In this document: one piece after another, positions 2 through 20,470 of the stretch | Layout of the letters: every line of letters starts with the position of its first letter | How positions within the stretch are numbered: the first letter of the stretch is position 1 | IMG/VR virus record: IMGVR_UViG_3300020459_000086 | Span: 1 to 20,855 of that record | DNA length: 20,855 nucleotides | Reading direction: 5' to 3' (one strand) | DNA from: a virus | Notes under the pieces: model-generated | Seen by the model: only the letters and a program-made list of their open reading frames with translations | Database searches by the model: none | What the model was told of the DNA's origin: nothing | Position numbers and translations under genes: made by a program

Positions 2-253
2 ACTACCGTACAAGCTTTTAGGGACGCCGGGCTTGAATATCATAATGAAATTGTTTTACTAAACGCGTTAGGTACCGCGCCGTTTAGAGCGGGCGGGTAC
101 TTTGATAACGACCGTAAGGTAGCTAAAACCCACCAAAACGTTTTAGTATTTTATAAAGGGGATAGCATAAAGGCCACCGAGTATTGCGGTAAGGTAGTAG
201 GCGTAGATTTAAAAAATTACGACGATCGTCCCGATTTTGATGAAACCAAGTAA
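2..253 (+). CDS. DNA methyltransferase, C-terminal part (5' end outside window)
   Basis: An open frame enters from the window edge and stops with TAA at 251-253, giving 83 residues of C-terminus. The stretch around GLEYHNEIVLLNALGTAPFR, followed by an FDNDRKVAKTHQNVLVF segment and a KGD motif, is typical of the last third of phage DNA-modification methylases, in which the end of the catalytic domain carries a THQ.VLVF strand. Such proteins often carry an N-terminal ParB-like domain, but that part lies outside the window. The family role is transfer of a methyl group from S-adenosylmethionine to phage DNA; the target is unknown. The 3' end overlaps the next methyltransferase by 14 nt. A palindrome GACGATCGTC lies inside it at 221-230. 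I recognise the family from memory of its sequence pattern; the catalytic motifs are not in view. Confidence 0.7.
   Translation, partial: TTVQAFRDAGLEYHNEIVLLNALGTAPFRAGGYFDNDRKVAKTHQNVLVFYKGDSIKATEYCGKVVGVDLKNYDDRPDFDETK
221..230. repeat. Palindrome GACGATCGTC, copy 1 (coding)
   Basis: Exact copy in the 3' end of the first methylase gene, read as Asp-Asp-Arg, and 10 nt before the next start codon. Confidence 0.85.
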
Positions 254-869
254 AAAATTTATAAAAGCCGACGCTTGTAAATGGTTATTTAAAAATAAAG
301 GATTAGGAGCGGTAATAACAAGCCCACCAGACGCGGAAGAAATAAATAAAAGTATAGATGATTGGCGCAACTGGTTTTTAATGGCCGTAGAATTATGTTT
401 TAAAGCTACTAAAAAAGATACGCCTACAATATTTTACGTAACCGACCGTAAACATAATAACGAGTTAATTAGTAAAACTAATTTAATTTTTCAAGGAGCA
501 AATAATCTTAATCGTAAATTAATGTTTCATAAAATAGCTTTACGTAAACCGGTTAATAGTATTGAACTTCATAGGCCTAGCTACTCGCATTTACTAGCTT
601 TTAATAATATTAATAAAGCTTACCCAACAACCATACAAGGAGCCGACGTATTTGAGCGTGGTAAAGTACTTTATAATAACGGTATGGGGTTAAGCGCAGC
701 AATTTTAAGCGTTAAGTATGCCGGGTTATTTACCGATACAATAGTAAACCCGTTTAGCGGGCAAGGTACCATTTGTACAATAGCCGAAACTTACGGCCTT
801 AACTCTATAGGTATAGAATTATTAGATGAGCAAATAGAAAAAAGTAAAGGTATAACAATAAGCAAATGA
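240..869 (+). CDS. Small DNA methyltransferase with TSPPD motif (beta-type motif order)
   Basis: 209 residues from ATG 240; a TTG directly upstream at 237 would add one residue, but ATG is preferred. Residues 27-31 are TSPPD, at the position of catalytic motif IV ([DNS]PP[YFW]). Residues 170-177 are NPFSGQGT, the FxGxGT S-adenosylmethionine-binding motif I, followed by a strand ending in GIEL. Motif IV before motif I is the beta-class order used by many N4-cytosine and N6-adenine methylases. Tyr/Phe/Trp after PP is replaced by Asp, which is unusual for an amino-methyltransferase; activity or target may differ. The gene overlaps the preceding methylase by 14 nt and shares ATGA with the small terminase gene, so it is probably co-translated. 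Function as a phage DNA methylase is likely; specificity cannot be read from the sequence. Confidence 0.72.
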   Translation: MKPSKKFIKADACKWLFKNKGLGAVITSPPDAEEINKSIDDWRNWFLMAVELCFKATKKDTPTIFYVTDRKHNNELISKTNLIFQGANNLNRKLMFHKIALRKPVNSIELHRPSYSHLLAFNNINKAYPTTIQGADVFERGKVLYNNGMGLSAAILSVKYAGLFTDTIVNPFSGQGTICTIAETYGLNSIGIELLDEQIEKSKGITISK

Positions 870-1393
870 GCAAAAGAGGGCGCATACCAAAAAAAGCCAA
901 TTTAAAAACCGGCCATAGAGATAATAGTTTACAAGTTTTAAAAGGCGGTAGTGAATTTACAAAACCAAAAGCACGCGCCCAATGGTTAACCGCTACCCGG
1001 CGATATTGGAAAAAATACTGGGATAGCGAGCTAAGTAGTACGGCTCAAGCGGTAGATCTCCCGGCTTTTTACAGATTGTTTCAATTTTACGACCAAGTAG
1101 AGCGCGCTAACCGTATGATTTTAAAACTAGGTAACAAAGGTTTGTTAAGCGTAGGTAGTCAAGGCCAACCTAAAGTAAACCCGTTAATAGATTTATCTAT
1201 AAAATTAGAGCCAAGCATTTTAAAATTAGAACAAGAATTAGGCCTAACCCCTTTAGCCCGTCAACGTTTAGGTATTGCTTTTGGCGAAGCCCAAATAGGA
1301 TTTAAACAACTACAAGATTATTTAAAAGATGATGAACTAGAAACGGTAGACCCGCGTTTGCTATTAGATGAGCTAGATAATGAAGAAGAATAA
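866..1393 (+). CDS. terS: Terminase small subunit (P27-like)
   Basis: 175 residues, starting in an ATGA overlap with the methyltransferase and ending 14 nt inside the large terminase gene. The basic N-terminus (SKRGRIPKKANLKTG), the central aromatic ARAQWLTATRRYWKKYWD region, the helical segment containing FYRLFQFYDQVERANRM, and the QGQPKVNPL stretch followed by LTPLARQRLGI are the recognisable layout of P27-family small terminases. The C-terminus is acidic (LLLDELDNEEE). It binds phage DNA and delivers it to the large subunit for packaging. Position immediately upstream of terL supports the assignment. It contains a GATCTCC-type site at 1055 within a Val-Asp-Leu-Pro codon run that uses the rare CTC leucine codon. 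Confidence 0.85.
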   Translation: MSKRGRIPKKANLKTGHRDNSLQVLKGGSEFTKPKARAQWLTATRRYWKKYWDSELSSTAQAVDLPAFYRLFQFYDQVERANRMILKLGNKGLLSVGSQGQPKVNPLIDLSIKLEPSILKLEQELGLTPLARQRLGIAFGEAQIGFKQLQDYLKDDELETVDPRLLLDELDNEEE

Positions 1394-2831
1394 TTTACCA
1401 GCTAGTAGGGGCGGTAGGGTTGTTAAGTTTATTGAAAAGTTTTGCGTACACGGTGAGGGAGATTTTTTTGGCGAGCCATTAATCCTTGATGACTGGCAAA
1501 GAAAAATAATATATGAACTTTACGAACTTAATCCGGATAAAAGCCGTAAGTATAGAGAGGGATTAATCGGCCTACCAAAAGGAAACGGTAAAACCCAGTT
1601 GGCTGCAGCAATAGGGCTTTACGAATTATTAGGCGCGGGTGTAACAAGCCCTTTAGTTGCCGTCGCTGCCGCGAGTTACGAACAAGCTAACCTAGTTTTT
1701 GGAACTATGAAAATTATGTGCGAGGAAAGTTTGTTTTTAAAAGATATGGTAGAAACATTTGAAAACGAAATACAAGTAAAAAATAGTCCGGGTAGGGCTT
1801 ATAGAGTTGCAGCAAAAGCAGGTACGGCCGACGGCGGGCGTAATAGTTGTTTGATAGCCGATGAAATACACGAATGGTCAAACATAAACCAAGAGCGGGT
1901 ACATTATGTACTTAGTAACAATACGGCAAAAAGAAAAGACGGTTTAGTTTTAAATATTACAACCGCCGGGTATAACTTAGATAGTTTAGCCGGGCGTATG
2001 TATCAAAGGGGATTAAAAAAGGAAACGGGCGAAAGCGATGACCCGGAATTTTATTTTAAATGGATAGGAGCCAAAGAAAATGACGATCGTCCCGAAGACA
2101 AAGATATTTGGATTAAATACAACCCGGCAATACAAAATAATTGGTGGCCTTTAGAAAATCTTAACCGTAGATTTAAAAGCTTACCATTACACGAATTCCA
2201 ACGATACCATTTAAACCAATGGACGCGTACAGAAGAAGAAAGTTGGTTACCCGGTAGCGCTTGGGATAATTGCACCGGCGATGTTGTTTTTAATCCGGAC
2301 GCCGAAACATTTGTAGGGGTTGATATGGCGTTACACCACGATAGCGTTGCTATAGTACACGGCCAAAAAAATAAAGAGGGTAAAGTAATTTTAGACAGTA
2401 AAATATGGCACCCCGACGATTACGATGTAATAGATATACAAGCGGTTGAGGGTTATATTTTAGAGTTAGTAAAATCTTTTAACGTAAAAGAAGTAGCTTA
2501 TGACCCGGCATTTTTTGAACGTAGCGCGCAAGTTTTATTAGATAACGGCGTAAATATGGTTAACTTTCCGCAAAGCCACGCCCGTATGGTACCGGCTTGC
2601 GGTAACGCTTACGATATGATTGTTAATAAAAAAGTAATACATAACGCAACGGCTACATTTACCGACCAAGTTTTAAGCGCGGCACAAAAAGTAACCGATA
2701 GCGGGTGGCGGTTATCAAAAGGTAGAAGTAAAAGAAAAATTGACGGGGCAATAGCTATGGTAATTATGCTAGATAGAATAACCGCGCCGGTAGTTGATGA
2801 TAACCCGCCGGTGAGTATAATAAATTTATGA
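1380..2831 (+). CDS. terL: Terminase large subunit (ATPase and nuclease)
   Basis: 483 residues. Walker A is GLPKGNGKT at about residues 64-72. Walker B is LIADE at about 158-162, with the acidic pair D161/E162. The C-terminal RNase H-like nuclease domain begins near VGVDMALHHDS; the probable metal-binding acids are D315, D375 (AYDPAFF) and D455 (DGAIAMVIML). Length and motif order fit the HK97-like/Terminase_1 group. The enzyme pumps DNA into the prohead through the portal and cuts the concatemer. It starts inside the 3' end of terS and ends in an ATGA overlap with the small membrane-protein gene, then portal. A GACGATCGTC palindrome is at 2082-2091, encoding part of a DDRP run. Confidence 0.95.
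   Translation: MKKNNLPASRGGRVVKFIEKFCVHGEGDFFGEPLILDDWQRKIIYELYELNPDKSRKYREGLIGLPKGNGKTQLAAAIGLYELLGAGVTSPLVAVAAASYEQANLVFGTMKIMCEESLFLKDMVETFENEIQVKNSPGRAYRVAAKAGTADGGRNSCLIADEIHEWSNINQERVHYVLSNNTAKRKDGLVLNITTAGYNLDSLAGRMYQRGLKKETGESDDPEFYFKWIGAKENDDRPEDKDIWIKYNPAIQNNWWPLENLNRRFKSLPLHEFQRYHLNQWTRTEEESWLPGSAWDNCTGDVVFNPDAETFVGVDMALHHDSVAIVHGQKNKEGKVILDSKIWHPDDYDVIDIQAVEGYILELVKSFNVKEVAYDPAFFERSAQVLLDNGVNMVNFPQSHARMVPACGNAYDMIVNKKVIHNATATFTDQVLSAAQKVTDSGWRLSKGRSKRKIDGAIAMVIMLDRITAPVVDDNPPVSIINL
2082..2091. repeat. Palindrome GACGATCGTC, copy 2 (coding)
   Basis: Exact copy within terL, read as Asp-Asp-Arg followed by Pro; the flank CCGA after the palindrome matches copy 1. Confidence 0.85.
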
Positions 2832-20122: not shown

Positions 20123-20422
20123 ATGACAGAAGAACAAGCTTTAGAGCAAGCTACCCAAGAAATAGAAGACGCTAAACCCTTATACGCACAAGTAAATAAT
20201 GAACGTAGAGAATTTACCGACGCTGAATATGACCAATCTATCATAGATAGAAAAAATAGTATATTAGATGAATATAATAATGGTTATAAAAAAGATAGAC
20301 AACAAGCATATTTGCCGATTGCGGAGCAATTAGATATGCAATATTGGGATAGCGTAAACGGTACTACCGATTGGGTAGACCATATAGAAAAAGTTAAAGC
20401 AGATTTTCCTAAACCTAGCTAA
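20123..20422 (+). CDS. Small conserved post-fibre phage protein
   Basis: 99 residues, mostly helical and acidic: EEQALEQATQEIEDAKPLYAQVNNERREFTDAEYDQ, then DRQQAYLPIAEQLDMQYWDSVNGTTDW and a C-terminal HIEKVKADFPKP. The motif 'R..aYp.i.eQLDm.YwD.vngt..W...I..vK..fP.P' is very frequent in phage proteins encoded right after tail fibres. Function is not established; a chaperone or accessory role in tail-fibre assembly is often guessed. It has its own regulatory element, so it is probably expressed separately from the fibre genes. Confidence 0.75.
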   Translation: MTEEQALEQATQEIEDAKPLYAQVNNERREFTDAEYDQSIIDRKNSILDEYNNGYKKDRQQAYLPIAEQLDMQYWDSVNGTTDWVDHIEKVKADFPKPS

Positions 20423-20430
20423 AACTTAAA

Positions 20431-20470
20431 ATATCACGGAAAAAAATGACGATTGTCGTTGAAGTATAAT
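20431..20470 (+). promoter_or_regulatory. Variant palindrome element before the putative lysis genes
   Basis: ATATCACGG and seven A, then TGACGATTGTC (palindrome copy with one change, 20448-20457), 7 nt, perfect TATAAT (20465-20470), 8 nt, ATG 20479. The distances palindrome-to-TATAAT (7 nt) equal those of the element at 20099. No Shine-Dalgarno sequence occurs before the ATG; transcription would begin at or next to it. Confidence 0.6.

Follow-up and report, generated by a model that had tools for sequence, protein, structure and literature searches.

Dispersed GATC-centered palindromes with lineage-specific arms in small actinophage genomes: a candidate recognition-site array

The genomes of the actinophages phiC31, TG1, and BT1 carry conserved inverted repeats that are bound by the c repressor. 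The stoperators of cluster A mycobacteriophages such as L5 and Bxb1 number 20 to 30 genome-wide and have a lineage-specific consensus, show no dyad symmetry, and point in the direction of transcription (PMC6550527). In cyanobacteria, highly iterated palindrome 1 (HIP1; GCGATCGC) and alternate HIPs are linked to orphan methylases, and the alternate HIPs accompany matching methylases (PMC4390886). Here we analyze a dispersed 10-bp palindrome, GACGATCGTC, in a virus record of 20,855 bases (IMGVR_UViG_3300020459_000086; this whole stretch is called the window), which is a fragment of an actinophage genome of about 30 kb. Our preferred interpretation, held with a little less than even confidence, is that a single phage-specified factor recognizes such palindromes as an array of sites spread across the genome, with a code that differs between sister lineages.

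A reading made from the sequence alone had placed seven exact copies of GACGATCGTC at positions 221, 2082, 9078, 10881, 13557, 15832, and 20099, and all of these coordinates were right. The near copies that it described at 5820 (GACGATCGTG) and 20448 (GACGATTGTC) and the half copies at 7697 and 10860 (GACGATCTCC) were also found. It had given the spacing as 1.4 to 4 kb; the exact copies are actually 1.8 to 7.0 kb apart (1.8 to 4.3 kb if 5820 is counted). The sites, and the gene that holds the first of them, are as follows.

221..230, no strand: exact GACGATCGTC, in the C-terminal codons of the ParB-like/methylase gene, Asp-Asp-Arg frame
2082..2091, no strand: exact GACGATCGTC, within the large terminase gene, Asp-Asp-Arg frame
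5820..5829, no strand: near copy GACGATCGTG, within the protease gene
7697..7706, no strand: hybrid site GACGATCTCC (arms GTC and TCC), within the head-tail adaptor gene
9078..9087, no strand: exact GACGATCGTC, within the major tail protein gene, Thr-Ile-Val frame
10860..10869, no strand: hybrid site GACGATCTCC, intergenic, directly 3' of a strong terminator-like hairpin
10881..10890, no strand: exact GACGATCGTC, intergenic, 21 bp past the hybrid site at 10860
13557..13566, no strand: exact GACGATCGTC, within the tape measure gene, Thr-Ile-Val frame
15832..15841, no strand: exact GACGATCGTC, in a 45-nt gap between tail genes, with the same word there in relative G016
20099..20108, no strand: exact GACGATCGTC, intergenic, with a start codon 14 nt downstream
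20448..20457, no strand: near copy GACGATTGTC, directly ahead of a start codon
1..253, + strand: 3'-terminal part of the gene for the ParB-like/methylase fusion (ParB-like and DNA methyltransferase by PHROGs), with the upstream part taken from contig L006

The gene holding the copy at 221 runs off the window, its end reading DLKNYDDRPDFDETK and stop. The near-identical contig L006, in which the upstream part is present, also has this copy, there with an altered 5' flank. The intergenic copies proper are those at 10860, 10881, 15832, and 20099.

The expected number of GACGATCGTC copies was 0.00 in 100 shuffles and 0.002 under an order-2 Markov model (p about 10^-22.6), which upholds the earlier estimate of far fewer than one by chance, and the word is by far the strongest palindrome of the window. 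When proteins and codon usage were held fixed, 0.12 coding copies were expected and at most 2 occurred in 200 shuffles, compared with the 4 observed. Copies in the window use two reading frames, and those in the relatives that share the word (type A, below) use all three. Because the excess outlives the codon shuffle and several frames are used, the constraint is on the DNA word, not on the protein, as had been proposed. Intergenic sites are over-represented: 4 of the 10 strongest window sites fall in the intergenic 5%, where 0.5 would be expected. GATC itself occurs 23 times in the window versus about 68 predicted from base composition, and nearly all of these GATCs bear at least one arm of the kind GTC or TCC, the latter being a second arm type. 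Since nearly every GATC has such an arm, the unit is better described as GATC plus arms than as one rigid 10-mer.

Each relative was then scanned for repeated gapped palindromes with no word preset; genes in relatives were simple longest open reading frame (ORF) calls. The search for the motif in related phages, put forward in the sequence-only reading, succeeded in relatives of the same type. Type A contigs carry GACGATCGTC 7 times in 11.9 kb (L106), 8 times in 16.4 kb (G016/L108), 3 times (L107), and twice (L006). Sister phages whose terminases are 81 to 90% identical carry other dispersed words, all of them centered on GATC.

Type B (G003): CTGATCAG, 10 copies, often inside GCGCTGATCAGCGC-like sequence
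Type C (G006, G020): TTGATCAA, 17 copies in G006
Type D (G010): TTCTGATCAGAA, 13 copies of the 12-mer over 30.6 kb, often lengthened to ATTCTGATCAGAAT
Type E (G001, L099, G022): GTTGATCTAA, 13 copies in G001
Type F (G009, G019): TAGATCTA, weak
Type A' (L105, a neighbor of type A): GACGATCGCG-like sites

Near-whole relatives have 15 to 22 sites with type-specific words, a density of about one per 1 to 3 kb; the type D genome has 15 TGATCA sites over its 30.6 kb. Only types A' and E have asymmetric words, types A to D being palindromic, and the type E word occurs in both orientations on a genome with almost all of its genes in the same direction. In type G genomes there is no long word, and their GATC count is about twice expectation. 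The 14-bp type D word was found in 111 stretches of viral contigs, mostly as single copies; among the matches listed it was dispersed only in its own contig, and another contig had three copies within 0.5 kb. Few independent genomes represent each type (type D is one genome), and types E and F are weaker than A to D, with type E sites nearly all in one coding frame.

The excess over protein-preserving codon shuffles was present in each of types A to F and weak for G020. Conservation of site positions, which the sequence-only reading had raised, was borne out within types: all 7 sites were identical between G014 and G016, and all 10 between G001 and L099, compared with 63% and 78% of random nearby 10-mers, respectively. 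Between types, at most one site per set was identical, and the 10-bp cores were less alike than their flanks (identity of 0.57 versus 0.79 for A to B, 0.63 versus 0.78 for B to E, and 0.71 versus 0.84 for C to E). Because sites diverge more than flanks between types, each lineage appears to have rebuilt its own set. Positions shared with changed arms numbered 6 of 16 from G003 to G006 (0.1 expected) and 6 of 17 from G003 to G001 (0.2 expected). This far exceeds chance, suggesting that the lineages retain a site set but alter how it is spelled and where most of its sites lie. Spacing was also more even than random in types A to D: beyond all 5,000 random sets in D and B, at 0.012 in the type C genome G006, and at 0.01 to 0.05 in type A.

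As a control, the same palindrome scan was applied to phiC31, where it recovered TACTCACGTGAGTA 15 times in 41.5 kb, at 10^-76. The sites described here resemble those of phiC31 in being perfect palindromes scattered through early as well as late genes, at similar copy number and in an actinophage whose terminase is distantly related (29%). In phiC31, however, 14 of the 15 sites are intergenic by the listed genes and spacing is not significantly even, whereas here the majority of sites are coding, GATC is constant, and the arms change fast between sisters. Overall, the layout fits the palindromic repressor sites of phiC31 better than the asymmetric stoperators of mycobacteriophages. By this analogy, a two-fold symmetric, phage-specified DNA-binding factor would occupy roughly one GATC-centered site per 1 to 3 kb. 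The sites of one genome would share arms, the factor of a sister phage would read other arms around the constant GATC core, and the site set would be rebuilt to match the changed arm preference. We infer that a protein reads the sites, that it comes from the phage, and that it has such a function. The nucleoprotein array might block or damp transcription along the phage genome, organize the genome, or both, if the precedents of the phiC31 repressor sites and the stoperators apply.

Several observations weigh against this interpretation. An operator of shifting specificity would not usually keep GATC as a constant core, which better suits a methylase target. Spacing more even than random was not seen in G001 or type F. 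A -10-like box lies 7 nt downstream of three window sites, but fixed promoter geometry was rejected: in the gap near 10.9 kb of G003 and G006, the site is on the opposite side of a conserved ATGTCATA element, so the sites keep no fixed spacing to promoters. The capsid codons that open relative G001 are also its final ones, and because both ends carry them we take it as a complete, circularized genome of about 30.6 kb. Among its 24 scanned, mostly nonstructural proteins, Pfam and PHROGs recognized neither an integrase nor a CI-like repressor. A blastp search of the relatives' ORFs found no homolog of the phiC31 c repressor. The early genes of the window lie outside the record and were read from relatives sharing its word type. 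The sequence-only reading had suggested looking outside the window for a gene encoding a phage DNA-binding protein, and among the candidates examined in the early genes of relatives no cognate reader was identified. The recognition helix of the O-like replication initiator differs between types yet is common to C and E, and the iterons in its own gene (18 to 24 bp) are unchanged across types A to G; the initiator was rejected as the reader on these grounds. A 90-amino-acid helix-turn-helix (HTH)-like protein was rejected because its grouping does not follow the types.

A 142-amino-acid PD-(D/E)XK-like protein matched the Holliday junction resolvase Hjc weakly (E of 0.04 at best; predicted local distance difference test [pLDDT] score of 68 for the model) and is no obvious reader, and a 134-amino-acid protein had no significant fold match despite a good model (pLDDT of 86). 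Ranking of 15 early families by co-variation with word type did not single out a credible candidate; the highest score over all pairs went to a 60-amino-acid probable membrane protein, and the ranking proves little because it rests on 6 to 21 non-independent pairs. The ParB-like/methylase fusion, whose gene precedes the terminase genes, is at present the best candidate for the reader, although a weak one.

The same fusion protein underlies the main rival explanation, which we regard as possible though unlikely. The sites could be targets of an orphan ParB-like/N6_N4 methylase, kept for marking, repair, or replication, with changes in methylase preference altering the word; they would then be methylation-linked palindromes, a phage counterpart of HIP1 and the alternate HIPs. 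All types keep GATC constant, as HIP1 does, and alternate HIPs occur together with methylases that match them (PMC4390886). Likewise, HIP1 sites are GATC-centered palindromes, coding and intergenic, that occur about once per kb (here once per 1 to 3 kb) as lineage-dependent words. The fusion gene was the only one seen in contigs of all word-bearing types A to F and is missing from the four word-less type G genomes whose left end is present. Distant relatives without words, however, have fusions that are about 70% identical, so presence of the gene alone does not explain the words. Furthermore, types B and F have similar methylases and different words, and 10 to 14 bp is a very long target for such an enzyme. 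Where this methylase occurs in unrelated phages, no special effect on GATC is seen; a survey of 74 mostly unrelated loci did not support the enzyme as a general cause of GATC depletion. HIP1 also differs in scale, with thousands of sites in cellular genomes against about 10 to 20 in these 30-kb phages, where words reach 14 bp.

It is improbable that a host protein binds or modifies the sites, with the types corresponding to different host species and the phage recruiting the protein or passing as self. Types could follow hosts, and host restriction pressure is strong, CATG and GANTC being absent from the window. The host is probably a marine actinobacterium, judging from a more distant relative (73% terminase) found within a Candidatus Actinomarina single-cell genome. 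None of 42 genomes from the Actinomarina order, the probable hosts, contains the type A word, and no iterated GATC palindrome was found in 400 kb of genomes from this order; a host-genome palindrome was therefore rejected for the order. Across 296 genomes of the class, the word occurs at most about once per 24 kb, which does not suggest a host palindrome either.

Stoperators in the strict sense, at which a cluster A-type immunity repressor halts transcription elongation in the prophage through asymmetric sites, are very improbable here. The sequence-only reading had compared the sites to stoperators, and the likeness holds for number, dispersal, and lineage-specific sequence. It fails elsewhere: cluster A sites are 13 to 14 bp long without dyad symmetry, whereas types A to D are palindromic and the asymmetric type E word runs in both orientations. 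In addition, G001, a complete word-bearing relative, has no recognizable immunity repressor, integrase, or parABS among its 24 scanned proteins, parA included. Because of these differences in symmetry, orientation, and repressor, the array falls outside the definition of a stoperator system, which lowers membership in that class and not the possibility of a similar way of working. A packaging site, also mentioned in the earlier reading, is unlikely given 10 to 20 sites per genome and a fixed end elsewhere that many contigs share. Finally, it is scarcely credible that the words are contexts left over from GATC avoidance under restriction or from codon habit, since, although GATC is below expectation in types A to D and other short palindromes are strongly avoided, filtering cannot yield a hundreds- to thousands-fold excess of one 10-mer, intergenic copies exist, and the excess outlasts the codon shuffle.

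Returning to a phage-specified factor and its array, dispersed site sets are known from a few temperate actinophages, in which they silence the prophage. Here the array occurs in small phages seemingly without lysogeny genes, and its code shifts between close relatives while GATC stays. We tentatively propose that a family of small marine actinophages without recognizable lysogeny genes may keep an evenly spaced, GATC-cored array whose arms are switched in sister lineages together with its reader, possibly the ParB-like/methylase fusion. Such a self-specific code for marking or organizing the genome would be of a kind not described before. The sister phages provide natural test pairs for joint change of a DNA-binding specificity and a whole site set. 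Because their genomes are about 30 kb with 10 to 20 sites, they also offer a compact system for asking why GATC-centered palindromes such as HIP1 are iterated.

The window encodes small and large terminase, portal, protease, capsid, tail, and tape measure proteins. It had no DNA-level match to phage records (megablast) and no Rfam match. By terminase, the closest isolate is Pontimonas phage phiPsal1 (32%), with the phiC31 group next. The near-whole relatives code for WhiB, an O-like replication initiator, HNH nucleases, lysin, and the ParB-like/methylase fusion. phiPsal1, a 31-kb actinophage, is similar in having WhiB, an archaeal-type Holliday junction resolvase, HNH, RepO, an N6 methylase, and a phosphodiesterase; it differs in having two cI/cro-type HTH genes and no dispersed palindrome by the same scan. 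Many relatives' contigs (e.g., L026, L029, L031, L036, L045, and L061; L015, L020, G006, and G009) start about 135 to 200 bp 5' of the first gene, which is the small terminase gene or, where present, the methylase fusion gene. This left start, shared by independent contigs, suggests that the genome has a fixed, cos-type end. The iterons in the initiator gene (TAGTAAAGAAAACTTAAC, 24-bp spaced; L106:8234-8299, L086:8966-9034, L092:4179-4262, and L139:10337-10448) are likely the replication origin and presumably the initiator's own binding sites, by analogy with lambda O.

Two features adjoin intergenic sites of the window. A strong bidirectional terminator-like hairpin (AAAAACCCGGCGCGC..GCCGGGTTTTT) at 10814-10845 lies directly 5' of the site pair 10860/10881. 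A conserved TAATGTCATA element occurs in short gaps, at 15807-15855 and 20076-20123 in the window and in the matching gaps of G001, G003, G006, G010, G016, and G018. It consists of a stop-start overlap followed by tiny ORFs (7 to 17 codons) whose peptides vary from phage to phage.

A census of short palindromes covered the window and relatives G001, G003, G006, G009, G010, G014, G016, G018, G019, G021, and L105. Avoidance is extreme in the window, with CATG and GANTC at zero, GGNCC found twice, and TCGA three times; CCGG, GCGC, and CGNCG are 3 to 4 times above composition. The avoided words vary by type (AGNCT only in A and A', CGCG only in G, and GGNCC unavoided in D), which suggests different host restriction systems. 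GATC is 1.7 to 2.5 times above expectation in some relatives (G018, L011, L012, L019, L074, L077, L078, and L083), and G018 and G021 also exceed the codon shuffle (150 versus 73 and 116 versus 42, respectively). The ParB-like/methylase gene is absent from GATC-rich genomes in which the left end is present. At the other extreme, contig L080 has zero GATC in 12.9 kb.

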